NCBI GenBank assembly: GCA_024742285.1
Contig: JANSYR010000004.1
Location: forward strand, 372,001 to 436,000
Direction: 5' to 3'
From: a bacterium
Lineage (GTDB): Bacteria; Myxococcota_A; UBA9160; UBA4427
DNA length: 64,000 nucleotides
The notes under the pieces were generated by a model that ran no database searches, was not told the origin of the DNA, and saw only the letters and a list, made by a program, of their open reading frames with translations. Below, piece by piece: positions 23,776 through 37,916 of the stretch. The position numbers and the translations under genes were made by a program. How positions within the stretch are numbered: the stretch's first letter is position 1; each line of letters begins with the position of its first letter.

Positions 23776-23776
<1 letters not shown>
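22415..23776 (-). CDS. sufD: Fe-S assembly scaffold subunit SufD
   Basis: SufD pairs with SufB and the ATPase SufC in the SufBC2D scaffold. The 453-residue protein has a variable N-terminus and the conserved beta-helix core ending in KPQLEIYADDVKASHGSTIG and LDEEALFFLRARGI. Start ATG 23776 shares one base with the sufC stop (TGATG), and its stop overlaps sufS by 4 bp, so the whole block is translationally coupled. Confidence 0.94.
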
Positions 23777-24552
<776 letters not shown>

Positions 24553-24645
24553 CGTTCGGGTTTCCTGGGATGCGGGGGGAGGGGCGGCCGGGCCGACCCC
24601 GTCTTCGAGGCTTCCGGGGGGCGTTCCGGGTTGTTCTCGGCCGGA

Positions 24646-26106
24646 CTAGCCGACCGCGCCCTCCAGGCTGACGGAGAGCAGGTTCTGGGCTTCGACGGCG
24701 AATTCCATCGGGAGCTCCCGCAGGACTTCCTTGCAGAAGCCGTTCACGATCATCGAGATCGCGTCCTCTTCGCTGATGCCGCGCTGGCGGCAGAAGAAGA
24801 GCTGGTCGTCGCTGATCTTCGAGGTCGTGGCTTCGTGCTCGACCGTCGCCGTGGGGTTGCTCGCTTCGAGATAAGGGAACGTGTGCGCGCCGCACTTGTC
24901 GCCCATGAGCAGCGAGTCGCACTGGCTGTAGTTCCGCGCGCCGTACGCCTTCGGGCCCATGCGCACGAGACCGCGGTAGCTCTGGTCGCCGTGCCCGGCG
25001 GAGATGCCCTTCGAGATGATCGTGCTCGAGGTGTTCTTCCCGATGTGGATCATCTTCGTGCCGGTGTCGGCCTGCTGCCGGTTGTTGGTCATGGCGACCG
25101 AATAGAACTCGCCGACGGACTCGTCGCCGATCAGCAGGCAGGACGGGTACTTCCAGGTGATCGCGGAGCCGGTCTCGACCTGGGTCCAGGAGATCTTCGA
25201 CTTGTAGCCGCGGCACGCGCCGCGCTTGGTCACGAAGTTGTAGATCCCGCCCTTCCCGTCCTTGTCGCCGGGGTACCAGTTCTGGACCGTCGAGTACTTG
25301 ATCTCGGCGCGATCGAGGGCGACGAGCTCGACGACGGCGGCGTGGAGCTGGTTTTCGTCGCGCTGGGGCGCGGTGCAGCCCTCGAGGTAGGAGACGTAGG
25401 CGTCGTCGTCGGCGATGAGCAGCGTCCGTTCGAACTGTCCCGTGCCCGCGGCGTTGATCCGGAAATAGGTCGACAGCTCCATCGGACAACGCACGCCCTT
25501 CGGGATGTAGGCGAAGGAGCCGTCACTGAAGACCGCCGCGTTCAGGCAGGCGAAGAAGTTGTCCGAGTAGGGAACGACGCTGCCGAGGTACTTCTTGACG
25601 AGGTCCGGGTGGTCCGCGACCGCTTCGGAGAAGGAGCAGAAGATGATCCCGTGCTTCTCGAGCTCGGCCTTGAAGGTGGTCGCGACCGAGACGCTGTCGA
25701 ACACGGCATCGACGGCGATTCCGTTCAGGCGCTTCTGCTCGAGCAGCGAGATGCCGAGCTTGTCGTAGGTCTCGCGGAGCTCGGGGTCGAGATCGTCGAG
25801 GCTCTCGATCTTCTTCTGCTGCTTGGGAGCCGAGTAGTAGACGATGTCGTCGTAGTCGATCTTCGGATACGAGACCTTCGCCCACTCCGGATGGGCGTCT
25901 TCCTCTTCGAGCATCTCGCGGAAGCGGCGGAACGCCTTCAGGCGGTACTCGAGCAGCCACTCGGGCTCGTTCTTCTTCGAAGAGATCAACCGGACGACGT
26001 CCTCGGTCAGGCCGGGTGCGACGCGGTCCTCTTCGATGTCGGTGACGAAGCCGTACTTGTAGTCCTGCTTCGCGAGCTTCTCGAGTTCGGGGTTGGCACC
26101 GGCCAT
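24646..26106 (-). CDS. sufB: Fe-S assembly scaffold subunit SufB
   Basis: The 486-residue protein is typical for SufB. It has the N-terminal [12 protein letters not shown] region, the motif [20 protein letters not shown] with a conserved Cys, and the C-terminal segments [13 protein letters not shown] and [23 protein letters not shown]. SufB holds the nascent cluster. It follows the Rrf2 regulator by 55 bp. Confidence 0.97.
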
Positions 26107-26161
26107 GGTGGAGGCTTTCCGTTCCGGGTGTTGGGGGTGGGTTCGGGGATGGAATTCGGAA

Positions 26162-26647
26162 CTAACGTTCGAGTGGCGTCGAATCGGTTCGGGGAGATCG
26201 GTCGATCTGGAGCGTCGCGGTCGCGCTCTCTACGCCCGCGGTCTGTCCGCGAACGAGATCGGCGAGAGAGACGCCTTCGAGCGCGCGCTCGACGACGCGA
26301 TTGATCTGCTGCCAGGGCTCGCGGACCACGCAGGCGCTCTCGTGGGAGCAGATCGAAGGTCCGGCCGCGCATTCGGTCAGCGCCAGGGGGCCTTCGAGGA
26401 CGCGAATCATCTCGGCCACCGGGACGTCTTCGGGGTCGCGCGACAGCGCGTAGCCGCCCTTGGAGCCGCGCTGGGACGAGAGCAGTCCTTCCTTGGCGAG
26501 CGCCTTGAGGATCTTGCTCACCATCGGCACCGGCAGAGCAGACGTCGCCGCGAGCTCACGCGCGTTCTGGGGCACGGGCGACGGTTCGCTCGCGAGCTGC
26601 GCCATCAGCACGATTCCGTAGTCGGTCGTCTTGCTGAGCTTGAACAA
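26162..26647 (-). CDS. Rrf2 family Fe-S-sensing regulator of suf
   Basis: The 161-residue protein has an N-terminal winged helix ([17 protein letters not shown], then [17 protein letters not shown]) and an effector segment with three cysteines in CX6CX5C spacing ([15 protein letters not shown]). This is close to the CX5CX5C Fe-S ligand set of IscR. It stands first in the suf operon, so feedback control of Fe-S biogenesis is likely. TTG 26647 is the chosen start, with GGAGG 10 bp upstream and a protein start ([11 protein letters not shown]) that fits the family. Confidence 0.9.
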
Positions 26648-26728
26648 GGGGGGCGGTCCTCCGCTCCTGAAACGGTCGGCCCGGGGTGGGTGGAGCGTCC
26701 GGGTCGATGCGCGTCTCGGGGCGCGCCG

Positions 26729-26757
26729 ACTATAGAGGACCAAATCGGTACTGTAAA
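26729..26757 (-). promoter_or_regulatory. Sigma-70 promoter of the rrf2-suf operon
   Basis: On the minus strand, -35 TTTACA (26757-26752) is separated by exactly 17 bp from -10 TATAGT (26734-26729). Transcription would begin near 26723, about 75 bp before the rrf2 start. This is among the best housekeeping promoter matches in the window. Confidence 0.75.
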
Positions 26758-27725: not shown

Positions 27726-29111
27726 TCAGTCGACATCTTCCATAGGCGGGCCGAAGTCGCTTCCGGCGAAGCGGGCGAGGGGAAGGAGCAGCGGGAGGCC
27801 GTCGTGAGGCCAATCGATCGGAGGCGTCTGGAGCCGACCCGGTTTTGTTAAGCGGGATACACCCAGGGCCGACCATTCGATCGGAACGGTGGCGCCTGTC
27901 GAACGCGCGTCGGTAGGTGCGAGGCCGAGAGTCTCTTCCGAGCGGTTGCCGATTGAAGTGACTTCATCTTCACGATCTTCACGAAAACCTGCGACACAGA
28001 CGTTCGAGAGATGGCCGGAGAAGGGCTCCAGAGCCCGAAACAGCACATCCTTGGATTCGACCGGGCAAAGTCGCAGGAAACGGCCGAGCGGCGCCGGTCG
28101 CGGTCGCGCGTCGGTTTCCAGCACGATCGTGTGCTGTTCGCCTTCGAATAACATTCCGGCGCCCGCCGCCGCGCGCATGCGTGCTTCGCTTCGCTCGTGT
28201 GCGATCGAGACGGAGGTCTCCAATTCGAGGTCGCCGCGAGGGAGCGCTACCGACACGCGTGCGAGGGCGGCGTCGAGATCGGCGGCGAACCGCCCTGCCG
28301 CATCGGTCGGCCAGCCGACCAGGTAGACGACGACGGGCGAAAGACAGCCCGACTGATCCCAGCGCGCGACATCGAGGGCGAGGTCGGACGCCACGTCGGG
28401 GTAGGCGGATTCCGGGAGCTCCGGTCCGAGGACGCCGATCGAGAACCGATGGCCGTAGCCGAGGAACCGCTGGGTGGGCGAAAGCCGGCTGGAGATCGCG
28501 GCGAGCGTCTCGTCGGAGCCGGTCGCGACGACACAAGGCGCCGAGAGCGCTGCGTCGAGGGCCATCGAATCGTCCGACGGAAACGCGATCGGCTCGAAGG
28601 CGGCCGCGAGTCCGTCGTCCCGCTCGGCCAGCGACCGCGCCAGCAGCCGGGCGGTGACCGGGTCCTTCGAGGTCTCGCGGAGCAGCACGGGGGAGCCCAG
28701 GACCAGCGGGATCAGGGACGAGAGGAGCGTCGGCATCGGAAGGGCGCCTCCGGCGATCACCGTCGTCCACTCGAAGGGCACGAGGGCTCGGCGCCCGTCG
28801 ATCCGAGCGCCGTCGATCTCACGGGCCGCACAGGCGGCGAAATCGGCAGGCCGCCAGGCCCGCAACGCGCTCTCGAGTCCCTCGGCGATCGTCGGTCCGG
28901 TGAAGGGCGTCGCCTCGGTGAGGCCCGCGGCGAGCGCTCGTCGCCAGGGCGAATCGGGCTTCGTCCAGTCCTCCAGAACGGTCGCGACGGCGGCGAGCCG
29001 CTCCTCGATGGGGCGTTGGGCGAGGGCCGCCCCGGCGACCCGCAGTCGTCCCTCGGCCGCGCGCACCCGCTCTGCGCCCTCGTCGGGCCAGTCGATCTCG
29101 AGTCGACTCAC
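27726..29111 (-). CDS. luxC: Acyl-CoA/acyl-protein reductase, LuxC family
   Basis: LuxC-type enzymes take an acyl group as a thioester on a cysteine and reduce it with NADPH to an aldehyde. The 461-residue protein has the family's aldehyde-dehydrogenase-like layout, and its predicted acyl-accepting cysteine is Cys256 in ARWDQSGCLSPVVV, matching the LuxC DQxxCxSP motif. It begins at GTG 29111, overlapping the luxE stop by 4 bp. No luciferase (luxAB) or luxD is present, so the aldehyde is not for light. The aminotransferase in the same operon suggests that the aldehyde is aminated. Confidence 0.85.
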   Translation of the reverse strand: MSRLEIDWPDEGAERVRAAEGRLRVAGAALAQRPIEERLAAVATVLEDWTKPDSPWRRALAAGLTEATPFTGPTIAEGLESALRAWRPADFAACAAREIDGARIDGRRALVPFEWTTVIAGGALPMPTLLSSLIPLVLGSPVLLRETSKDPVTARLLARSLAERDDGLAAAFEPIAFPSDDSMALDAALSAPCVVATGSDETLAAISSRLSPTQRFLGYGHRFSIGVLGPELPESAYPDVASDLALDVARWDQSGCLSPVVVYLVGWPTDAAGRFAADLDAALARVSVALPRGDLELETSVSIAHERSEARMRAAAGAGMLFEGEQHTIVLETDARPRPAPLGRFLRLCPVESKDVLFRALEPFSGHLSNVCVAGFREDREDEVTSIGNRSEETLGLAPTDARSTGATVPIEWSALGVSRLTKPGRLQTPPIDWPHDGLPLLLPLARFAGSDFGPPMEDVD

Positions 29112-30274
29112 GGCGAAGACACCTCGCCCGCCGCTTCGAGCATCACGTCCGTCGCGATCGAGCAGCCCCGTGCCTCGGCGCCCTCCTCCCGGCCGAGTAC
29201 GTCGAAGCCGATCAGGTCTCCAGCCTCGTCTCGGATCGCACGGCCGAGATCCGCCGTCTGGATCGCGGCGACGCTGCCGGTATTCGCCAGGTCGTGGATC
29301 ACGATCATGCCGACTTCGCCCGTCGCGACGTCGCGCCCGCTCTCCGGATCGACGAAACGGACGCGCGTCCAGGGTGGCGCTTCCTTGCGGCGGGGTCCGT
29401 CGGGATCGACGAGGGTCGAGTCGTAGAACTGACTACCGAGCTCGGTCATCCCGTACTGGTTGACGACCGAGCGCTCGTCGAGGCCGAAGAGCCCGGCGAT
29501 CTGGTGACGCAGCACGTCACGGGGCACGGTTCGGCTGCGTCCCTTGAAGCCGCCGGTCTCCATGACCCGCGAGCCAGGGGGCAGCCGCCAGCGATCGCGG
29601 TCCGCCGCCAGCGGTTCGTCGAGCAGGTGCACGAAAGCGAAGCTCGTCCCCGCGACCACGAGGGGGCGGTCTTCGCGCCGCGCGCGTTCCGCGGCGGCCT
29701 GGAGGGAAGCGAGGTCGAGACGACCCTCGTGCAGGTCGTAGCCGCTCTCCGGCCCGCCTTCGGCGCGGCGAAGCGTTTCGAACATGTGGGTGAGCGACGA
29801 GTCCGGCGCCTCTGCAGGACTCGGTGCGAGGAAACGCATTTCGGGGGCCGCGCCCTGGAGGTCGTGCAGGAAGGAGCGGCGCAGGCTCGCGAGGAGCGAG
29901 GCCTCGTAGAGCGCGAGCGAGTCGAGGTGGAGCTCCCCCCTCCGATCGACGCTCGTCCCGCTCGTCCGAAAGATCTTCACGGTCTCCGCCTCCGGGAAGC
30001 AGCGGAGCGGGAACTCCTTGAAGGCGCCGGTCGGGACGGGGGGGATGTCCTCGACGCGTTTCACTGCGTCGGGGGTGCGGTCGAGCGAGTCACACAGACG
30101 TGCGTAGGGCGGGCAGGCTTCGAACTGGAATCGGAAGAGCGAGAGGGCGAGGCGCTCGAAACGGGCGAGATCGAGCGGAGGCGTCGATTCCGCCATCCAC
30201 TCGAGGAGCTCGCGTTCGATCTCGCCGCGCGCCGCGCGATCGGGATTCGCGGAGTCGCCCACGAACGCGCTCAC
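29108..30274 (-). CDS. luxE: Acyl-protein synthetase, LuxE family
   Basis: LuxE activates a fatty acid as acyl-AMP, moves it to its own C-terminal cysteine and hands it to LuxC. The 388-residue protein has the adenylation motif FRTSGTSVDRRG (about 102-113), the METGGFKGRSR and NQYGMTELGSQFY segments of the adenylate-forming fold, and a cysteine in RGCSIATD (Cys371) in the position of the acyl-carrying residue of LuxE. GTG 30274 overlaps the aminotransferase stop by 4 bp. Fatty acid chain length and true substrate cannot be inferred. Confidence 0.87.
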   Translation of the reverse strand: MSAFVGDSANPDRAARGEIERELLEWMAESTPPLDLARFERLALSLFRFQFEACPPYARLCDSLDRTPDAVKRVEDIPPVPTGAFKEFPLRCFPEAETVKIFRTSGTSVDRRGELHLDSLALYEASLLASLRRSFLHDLQGAAPEMRFLAPSPAEAPDSSLTHMFETLRRAEGGPESGYDLHEGRLDLASLQAAAERARREDRPLVVAGTSFAFVHLLDEPLAADRDRWRLPPGSRVMETGGFKGRSRTVPRDVLRHQIAGLFGLDERSVVNQYGMTELGSQFYDSTLVDPDGPRRKEAPPWTRVRFVDPESGRDVATGEVGMIVIHDLANTGSVAAIQTADLGRAIRDEAGDLIGFDVLGREEGAEARGCSIATDVMLEAAGEVSSP

Positions 30275-31608
30275 GAAGTCGCTCCCGACGTGAGCACGTC
30301 GACGATCGCGTCGCACGCGAGATGGATCGCTTCGCGGTCGATCACGAGGGGCGGCGTGAGCGAGAGCACGCGGCCTCCGTCTCCGGAGGGCAGCAGGACG
30401 AAGCCGCGCTCGAGGAGCCGGGTCGTGGCGTCGAGGGAGATCTCGGGGCGCACGCATTCGATGCCGATCATGAGGCCCCGCCCACGGACTTCGACCACGG
30501 CGTCGACCTGGGCCAGATCGACGCGCAGCCGATCGAGGATCTCCTGCCCGAGCTTCGCGGCGCGGTTGGGGAGGTCGAGTCGCGCGGACAGGTCGAGGGA
30601 GGCGACGGCCGCGGCGCAGCTGGCGGGATGGCCGAGGAAGGTCTGTGTATGGAGTGCTTCGCCGTCCGAGCGTGGCCAGGCGTCGAAGATCCCGACGAGA
30701 CCGAGGCAGGCCGAGAGCGGCATGCCGGACGCGAGTCCCTTTCCGACGCAGAGCAGGTCGGGCACGACGCCCTCGTGGTCGCAGGCGAAGACGCGGCCGG
30801 TCCGGCCGAGCCCGGTGTAGATCTCGTCGGCGATCAGCAACCAGCCTGCTTCGTCGCAGATCTCGCGCAGGCCGCGCAGGAAGCCCTCGGTGGGAACGCG
30901 CTCGCCGCCGCGTCCCTGGAGCGGTTCGACGATCACCGCGCCGATCTCCTCGCGCGCTTCGTTCGCGACGCGACGGACCGACTCGAGATCGTCGTAGGGA
31001 ACGAAGCGGGTCGCTCGGGGGAGGCGCGCCTCGAAGGGCTCGCGGAAGTCGGCGCGCCAGGTCGCGTCGAGCGCGCCGAACGAAAGGCCGTGATAGGCGC
31101 CTTCGAAAGCGAGCAGGCCCGCGCGGCCGGTCGCGAGCATCGCCGTCTTGATCGCGGTCTCGACCGCGTCCGACCCCGACGACGAGAGCACCGTTCGTAC
31201 GGCGGGTGCTTCCGCCGAACCCCCTCGCGGATAGAGCTTCGTCAGCTTCTCGAGGAGCTCGACCTTCACCCGCGGCGGATGTACGTCGCCCATTCCATGG
31301 AGGAGGGTCGTGGCCTGGGACGCGATCGCCCGGGCGACTTCCGGGTGGGCGTGCCCGACGTTGGCGACCCCGAAGGCGGCGGTGAGGTCGATGAAGCGGT
31401 TGCCGTCGACGTCCCAGAGCTGGGCGCCCTGGGCGCGCTCCCAGAAGATCGGGACCGGGTCGAGGGCGGTCACGTTGCGACTCTCGACCCGGGCCAGCCG
31501 CTCGGCGAGGTCACGCGACGCGGGTCCCGGCACCGCGGTCCGGAGGGACGGCGGAAGCGTCACCGGCACGTCGGCCTGCTCGTCGCTTTCGGAGCGCGGG
31601 GCGGTCAT
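30271..31608 (-). CDS. Class III PLP aminotransferase
   Basis: The 445-residue fold-type I aminotransferase of the 4-aminobutyrate/ornithine group has the pyridine-binding Asp in IADEIYTGLGRTG, the PLP lysine K290 in CVGKGLASGMPLS, and the SSSGSDAVETAIK phosphate-binding motif. Such enzymes move an amino group between an amino acid and an aldehyde or keto compound, often at a terminal carbon. It is the first gene of a three-gene, 4-bp-overlapping operon with LuxE and LuxC. The inferred role is to aminate the aldehyde that they make, or to act in the reverse direction. Start ATG 31608. It diverges from folK across 170 bp. Confidence 0.9.
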   Translation of the reverse strand: MTAPRSESDEQADVPVTLPPSLRTAVPGPASRDLAERLARVESRNVTALDPVPIFWERAQGAQLWDVDGNRFIDLTAAFGVANVGHAHPEVARAIASQATTLLHGMGDVHPPRVKVELLEKLTKLYPRGGSAEAPAVRTVLSSSGSDAVETAIKTAMLATGRAGLLAFEGAYHGLSFGALDATWRADFREPFEARLPRATRFVPYDDLESVRRVANEAREEIGAVIVEPLQGRGGERVPTEGFLRGLREICDEAGWLLIADEIYTGLGRTGRVFACDHEGVVPDLLCVGKGLASGMPLSACLGLVGIFDAWPRSDGEALHTQTFLGHPASCAAAVASLDLSARLDLPNRAAKLGQEILDRLRVDLAQVDAVVEVRGRGLMIGIECVRPEISLDATTRLLERGFVLLPSGDGGRVLSLTPPLVIDREAIHLACDAIVDVLTSGATS

Positions 31609-36875: not shown

Positions 36876-37916
36876 ATGAAGCTCGGACTCGTCGCCGGCT
36901 ATTCCCCCGCCACCATGAGCGTCCCGATGGACCTGATCAAGGAAGCCGAGAGCCTCGGCTTCACGTCGGTCTGGACCGCGGAAGCCTGGGGCTCCGATGC
37001 GGCGACGCCCGCGGCCTGGATCCTCGCGTTGACCGAGAAGATCAACGTCGGCACCGCGATCATGCAGATGCCCGGTCGCACCCCGGCCATGACGGCCATG
37101 ACGGCGATGACCCTCTACGCCATGTCCGGCGGACGCTTCATCCTCGGTCTCGGGCCCTCGGGTCCGCAGGTCGTCGAGGGCTGGCACGGCGTGCCCTACG
37201 GTCGGCCGTTGACCCGCACGAAGGAATACATCTCGATCATCCGCACGATCCTCGAGCGCAAGGAGAAGCTCGAGCACCAGGGCTACCACTATCAGATTCC
37301 GTACACCGGCGAAGGCGCTTCGGGTCTCGGCAAGCCGCTCAAGAGCATCCTGCACGGCGATCCGAGCCTGAAGATCTACACCGCCTCGATCTCGCCCAAC
37401 GGAATGAAGTGCGCCGGCGAAGCGTCCGACGGCGTCTTCCCCGTCTGGATGAACCCCGAGCGCTACGACATCTTCGAGGAGTCGCTGAACGAAGGCTTCG
37501 CCGCGGCGGGCGGGGGCAAGTCCCTCGACGACTTCGAGATCGCGCCGTTCTGCACGACGATCCTGAACGACGACCTCGAGAAGGCCCGCATGCCCGTCAA
37601 GGCGAACCTCGCGCTGTACATCGGCGGCATGGGCGCGCGCGACAAGAACTTCTACAACGACTACTGCAAGCGCCTCGGCTATCCGGATGCCGCGAAGGAG
37701 ATCCAGGACCTCTTCCTCGACGGCAAGAAGGCCGAGGCGGCAGCGGCCGTTCCCGATCAACTCGTCGACGACGTCGCCCTCGTCGGCTCGGCGGACCGCA
37801 TCCGCGATCGCCTGCAGGCCTGGAAGGCCGCGGGCGAGAAGCGCCACGTGGGCTCGCTGCTCGCAGGAACCCAGAGCGTCGAAGCGCTCCGGGTTCTCGC
37901 CGAGGAAGTGCTCTAG
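36876..37916 (+). CDS. LLM-class (F420/flavin-dependent) oxidoreductase
   Basis: The 346-residue TIM-barrel protein belongs to the luciferase-like monooxygenase superfamily, in its F420-dependent branch by overall look. It has an N-terminal MKLGLVAGYSPATMS strand, the SVWTAEAWGSDA motif, the GTAIMQMPGRTPAMTAM segment and the GGRFILGLGPSGPQVVEGWHG stretch. AGGAGG lies 8 bp before the ATG. The substrate is unknown. It is not a luxA/B chain of a known luciferase, although it lies about 5 kb from the LuxC/E operon. It is a single-gene unit convergent with the SRPBCC gene. Confidence 0.9.
   Translation: MKLGLVAGYSPATMSVPMDLIKEAESLGFTSVWTAEAWGSDAATPAAWILALTEKINVGTAIMQMPGRTPAMTAMTAMTLYAMSGGRFILGLGPSGPQVVEGWHGVPYGRPLTRTKEYISIIRTILERKEKLEHQGYHYQIPYTGEGASGLGKPLKSILHGDPSLKIYTASISPNGMKCAGEASDGVFPVWMNPERYDIFEESLNEGFAAAGGGKSLDDFEIAPFCTTILNDDLEKARMPVKANLALYIGGMGARDKNFYNDYCKRLGYPDAAKEIQDLFLDGKKAEAAAAVPDQLVDDVALVGSADRIRDRLQAWKAAGEKRHVGSLLAGTQSVEALRVLAEEVL

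Follow-up and report, generated by a model that had tools for sequence, protein, structure and literature searches.

A LuxE, LuxC and aminotransferase gene trio as a probable replacement of QueC and QueF in the queuosine biosynthesis of Myxococcota and other bacteria

Which acid is converted, and into which amine, by three overlapping genes of a Myxococcota genome that encode an aminotransferase, a LuxE-like protein and a LuxC-like protein? The genes occupy positions 27,726–31,608 of the window, which is the whole 64,000-nucleotide stretch of DNA that was analyzed (assembly GCA_024742285.1, contig JANSYR010000004.1, positions 372,001–436,000). A preliminary description of this DNA had read the trio as a pathway from a fatty acid through an aldehyde to a fatty amine or an amine-capped product. 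Comparative genomic analysis suggested another substrate: the trio is very probably a non-orthologous replacement of QueC and QueF, converting 7-carboxy-7-deazaguanine (CDG) to 7-aminomethyl-7-deazaguanine (preQ1) in queuosine biosynthesis. PreQ1 fits the predicted acid-to-amine chemistry: it is a primary amine whose formal parent is a carboxylic acid. In the canonical route, QueC turns CDG into preQ0 and QueF turns preQ0 into preQ1 (PMC6884629; PMC9508795).

All three genes were located on the minus strand and form one operon, in which the aminotransferase/LuxE and LuxE/LuxC junctions are each a 4-bp overlap (GTGA); the coordinates and frames given earlier were correct. The class III pyridoxal-phosphate (PLP) aminotransferase (31608..30271, 445 aa), proposed to catalyze the last step, matched PF00202 with 334 bits (cut-off 30.5). 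The LuxE-like adenylate-forming acyl-protein synthetase (30274..29108, 388 aa, GTG start), which is proposed to activate CDG, carries a C-terminal cysteine, Cys371, and matched PF04443 with 64 bits (cut-off 24.9). The LuxC-like acyl-thioester reductase (29111..27726, 461 aa, GTG start), proposed to form the aldehyde, matched PF05893 with 115 bits (cut-off 21). With all three scores above their cut-offs, the profile-based family assignments are secure. The catalytic motifs reported earlier, TSGTS, RGCS around Cys371 and DQSGCLSP around Cys256 of the LuxC-like protein, were all present, and an alignment of relatives spanning the phylum revealed that Cys371, Cys256 and the PLP lysine of the aminotransferase (K290) are invariant.

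Queuosine-gene linkage, as expected of a preQ1 function, could be observed in operons of Verrucomicrobiota. QueE was found directly upstream of an aminotransferase of the same family (hereafter family aminotransferase) in 10 genomes, with a gap of −17 to +39 nt in 8 of them. The gene order at locus L099 was QueE, a small open reading frame, aminotransferase, LuxE and LuxC, and its QueE passed the curated cut-off; the nine genomes besides L099 had the aminotransferase unlinked from LuxE-LuxC and directly behind QueE. In 15 Verrucomicrobiota loci, LuxC was immediately followed by QueD (LuxE-LuxC-QueD), and the QueD proteins tested (3/3) scored over the curated cut-off. Both operons, QueE-aminotransferase and LuxE-LuxC-QueD, occurred together in 8 genomes, and one locus (L139) presented a contiguous aminotransferase-LuxE-LuxC-QueD arrangement on a single contig. 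Among Myxococcota, locus L082 has QueE 3 kb upstream.

A trio that converts CDG to preQ1 should replace QueC and QueF while QueE, TGT and QueA are kept. This pattern was evaluated in 148 Myxococcota genomes, relatives of the window genome from genus to phylum, with matches above 100 bits taken as true QueF and matches above 200 bits as full-length QueC. LuxE was present in 137 of the 148 genomes, in most of them as a single copy. True QueF occurred only in G092, G121, G137 and G145, and full-length QueC only in these four and G128; all five were devoid of LuxE. QueA was retained in 136 genomes and QueE-like matches in 145. The trio was thus present where QueF and QueC were missing and QueA and QueE kept, the exceptions being partial QueC matches in three LuxE-bearing genomes. 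The mutual exclusion of LuxE with QueF and with QueC, counted by genome, gave p = 1.7e-5 and p = 8e-7, respectively. In a further sample of 47 genomes covering other phyla, the family aminotransferase was found, linked or unlinked, in 33 (two of these holders being Myxococcota), all without QueF. True QueF was detected only in G151 and G180, genomes of Methylomirabilota and Chloroflexota that carry LuxE-LuxC without the family aminotransferase; the LuxE proteins of these two genomes were placed outside the main clade of the LuxE tree with modest support. CDG is proposed to be the acid and preQ1 the amine, since relatives of the trio adjoin QueE and QueD and the genomes with LuxE lack both QueF and full-length QueC.

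Several weaker matches were discounted in these counts. Weak QueF matches (22–31 bits) were inspected in the window genome and in G018, and were assigned to FolE because the GTP cyclohydrolase I motif was present; the other weak QueF matches, which aligned in the same pattern, were set aside by analogy as probable FolE. Weak QueC matches (20–34 bits), mostly short segments within long frames, were regarded as presumably belonging to other ATP-pyrophosphatase-type proteins.

We infer each catalytic step, the cofactor and the amino donor of the route, which is proposed to run as follows. QueE, encoded elsewhere in the window genome, would produce CDG, whose carboxylate would be activated by the LuxE-like protein with ATP to CDG-AMP and then transferred as a thioester to the enzyme's own Cys371. 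The acyl group would move to Cys256 of the LuxC-like protein and be reduced with a nicotinamide cofactor to 7-formyl-7-deazaguanine, from which the PLP aminotransferase would form preQ1. TGT would then insert preQ1 into tRNA and QueA would elaborate it towards queuosine, so that the nitrile preQ0 would be bypassed.

Conservation of the trio was evaluated at 57 primary Myxococcota loci counted by hand. The persistence of the aminotransferase next to LuxE/LuxC in relatives had been named by the preliminary description as decisive for its proposal, and it was strongly borne out: the family aminotransferase adjoined LuxE in 50/57 loci and the full contiguous trio was found in 42/57, a conservation far beyond chance. 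Where a member was unlinked, it could still be located in the genome, as with LuxC in family f16 and the aminotransferase in family f18. All LuxE-bearing genomes tested contained LuxC and the family aminotransferase (476–650 bits), whereas eight well-assembled Myxococcota genomes devoid of LuxE had no LuxC and only paralogous aminotransferases (at most 341 bits). The genes flanking the trio change from family to family. Across much of the window's order, SUF iron-sulfur genes (Rrf2 regulator, SufB and SufC; 23776-26743 in the window) lie downstream of the trio; this synteny is conserved, and a functional link is not evident.

The LuxE-LuxC pair also recurred in Verrucomicrobiota, Gemmatimonadota, Acidobacteriota, Eremiobacterota and Omnitrophota. 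LuxE, LuxC and the aminotransferase are likely to form an alternative route from CDG to preQ1, via 7-formyl-7-deazaguanine, that had not been described before. This route would stand in for QueC/QueF in most Myxococcota and in a large part of Verrucomicrobiota and Gemmatimonadota, and would also have members among Acidobacteriota, Eremiobacterota and Omnitrophota. No description of such a route was found in open-access full text, preprints and subscription journals being outside the search. A phage or mobile origin of the trio was rejected, as no phage or viral LuxE relatives were found and the plasmid relatives, from Azospirillum and Pantoea, were not accompanied by an aminotransferase. The plasmid loci (L260:6959-12800 of Azospirillum lipoferum and L261:6911-10258 of Pantoea dispersa) are LuxE-LuxC-SDR cassettes beside ABC transporters, and possibly encode an acid-to-aldehyde-to-alcohol pathway.

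In the window genome itself, QueA and TGT share an operon and a QueE-like gene lies away from the trio, while profile searches of this genome detected neither QueF nor full-length QueC. The best PDB matches of the QueE candidate were CDG synthases. Many genomes of the window's order have PTPS/QueD-like and FolE genes as neighbours, as at L201:4228-5617 in G018, and the PTPS/QueD-like gene beside FolE is possibly the QueD of this lineage.

A number of observations weigh against the replacement of QueC and QueF by the trio. The QueE candidate of the window genome is divergent (67 bits against a cut-off of 300), and its QueD candidate, located near a dihydropteroate-synthase-like gene, reached 60 bits against the QueD cut-off of 89. 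Linkage to queuosine genes was mainly confined to Verrucomicrobiota, and none was seen in the window's own class. The p values counted by genome ignore relatedness; counted by family, the fairer unit, they were 0.02 for QueF and 0.002 for QueC. The LuxE-less Myxococcota genomes G091 and G146 have QueA without detected QueC, QueF or trio, so other solutions to preQ1 exist; these genomes may use salvage or yet another route. The three LuxE-bearing genomes with partial or divergent QueC matches were G012, G062 and G076, and in two further ones, G114 and G134, a QueF-like protein is present whose catalytic cysteine is missing. Finally, a lone LuxE of the trio clade was present in Flavobacteriaceae without the family aminotransferase, and QueF was undetected there.

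Two of these groups could be described further. The QueF-II-like proteins of G134 (L199:4150-4734) and G114 (L200:4649-5230), both of family f22, scored 71–84 bits against a cut-off of 86.9 and show FLGVANQPD in the catalytic cysteine region instead of CLCPKTGQPD; each is possibly a repurposed QueF. The lone LuxE proteins of Flavobacteriaceae (L159, L163, L166 and L170) form a long branch inside the preQ1-type clade.

Could the trio act on a 7-deazaguanine but release a product other than free preQ1, such as a base that is modified further or a modification of DNA, while preQ1 is supplied by salvage or by an unknown enzyme? The linkage to QueE and QueD indicates a 7-deazaguanine role and not the exact product, and 7-deazaguanines are found in DNA as well (PMC6884629). 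This explanation is nevertheless considered improbable, as QueA, which requires preQ1 in tRNA, is kept in those 136 Myxococcota genomes while QueF is gone, and the missing step is exactly an acid-to-amine conversion.

The fatty-amine pathway of the preliminary description, in which LuxE and LuxC would convert a fatty acid to a long-chain aldehyde and the aminotransferase would yield a fatty amine or amine-capped lipid, was assessed against the same data. LuxE and LuxC of luminous bacteria do use fatty acids, and PigE of prodigiosin biosynthesis and TamH, the reductase-aminotransferase of tambjamine biosynthesis, are natural precedents for the acyl-to-aldehyde-to-amine sequence. The solved relatives of the window's pair are the LuxC-LuxE fatty acid reductase 7xc6: the LuxE-like protein had a profile match of 126 bits to 7xc6_E, and 7xc6_A was the top fold match of the AlphaFold model of the LuxC-like protein. 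However, the LuxE-like protein scored 56.9 bits against NF052244 (bioluminescence long-chain-fatty-acid ligase; at least 550 required) and the LuxC-like protein 33.3 bits against NF052251 (bioluminescence long-chain-fatty-acyl-CoA reductase; at least 750 required), both far under the equivalog cut-offs. The best fold matches of the LuxE-like AlphaFold model were phenylacetate- and other aryl-acid ligases, and its fold matches also included the phenazine-biosynthesis structures 3hgu, 3hgv and 3l2k. Profile searches of the neighbourhood detected no luxA, luxB or luxD near the trio, in agreement with the preliminary description. The sole luciferase-family gene found there (36876-37916) encodes an F420-dependent LLM-class oxidoreductase (TIGR03559, 373 bits) and is not a luciferase. 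No lipid or acyl-carrier gene recurred beside the trio, where the flanks vary and QueE and QueD recur instead; moreover, the trio is near-universal and single-copy across a phylum and mutually exclusive with QueF. An ether-lipid link through myxobacterial ElbD was also dropped, as ElbD is a different multidomain protein. A fatty-amine pathway is thus very unlikely. The chemical logic of acid activation, reduction and amination is probably correct, while the fatty acid substrate, and with it the fatty amine product, is probably wrong.

It is scarcely credible that the trio makes another small amine, such as a polyamine or an omega-amino acid, with an incidental queuosine-gene association: the closest solved aminotransferases are indeed GABA (gamma-aminobutyrate), acetylornithine and putrescine transaminases and the plasmid LuxE-LuxC pairs keep other partners, but within the same genomes each of the two separate halves of the module lies beside a different queuosine gene, QueF and QueC do not occur alongside the trio, and the glutamate-gate residues of the aminotransferase are altered.

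The altered gate was evident throughout the family. Arg233, in the motif EPxQGRGG, was invariant in 106/106 members and replaces the gate Glu of EPxQGEGG, and the partner Arg of VIRxxPP is absent; the protein is accordingly not of the GABA, ornithine or acetylornithine type. The exchange of this Glu for Arg, together with the loss of its partner, suggests that the substrate or donor site of the family is altered. Against the PigE model, the aminotransferase scored 263 bits (cut-off 850). A LuxC-aminotransferase fusion of 866 aa behind LuxE (L142:3137-5737) was dropped as direct support for the preQ1 route, since its aminotransferase has the canonical Glu/Arg pattern (EPVQAEAG / VVRLAPP). A similar non-family aminotransferase lies behind LuxC in a Nitrospirota locus (L104), and such arrangements possibly represent a second, independent acid-to-amine pathway.

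Known systems share parts of the proposed preQ1 route. The QueC and QueF branch likewise leads from CDG to preQ1, with QueE upstream and TGT/QueA downstream, but passes through the nitrile preQ0, whereas the trio would proceed by way of an aldehyde that is then transaminated, its proteins being unrelated to QueC and QueF. The LuxC-LuxE of luminous bacteria (7xc6) is a homologous pair with both catalytic cysteines, and its adenylation, cysteine thioester and aldehyde formation are predicted here as well; the trio differs in its low scores against the fatty-acid models, the lack of luxABD, the aminotransferase partner and the proposed heteroaromatic substrate. PigE and TamH resemble the trio in forming a primary amine from an acyl group through an aldehyde by a class III aminotransferase, although the reductase domains of PigE and TamH are fused and of another kind. 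In EhpF/EhpG of griseoluteic acid biosynthesis, the proposed role of an atypical adenylating enzyme is to activate a heteroaromatic carboxylate so that it can be reduced to an aldehyde; this system belongs to phenazine secondary metabolism and has no aminotransferase step.

Queuosine is a widespread wobble-base modification, and its precursor queuine is a micronutrient of animals. The bacterial pathway to the queuosine precursor has been described as FolE-QueD-QueE-QueC-QueF. The trio most likely makes preQ1 in many bacteria without the two textbook enzymes of that step, so that one branch of this central pathway seems to have escaped notice. The proposed route would add to queuosine biosynthesis a branch that has gone unrecognised, built from known enzyme families. 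If this is true, several phyla scored as incomplete by pathway reconstructions would make preQ1 by other chemical means, and many genomes would carry wrong annotations, for example 'long-chain-fatty-acid ligase' and 'acyl-CoA reductase'. The trio would also provide enzymes for converting an electron-rich heteroaromatic acid through an aldehyde to a primary amine.

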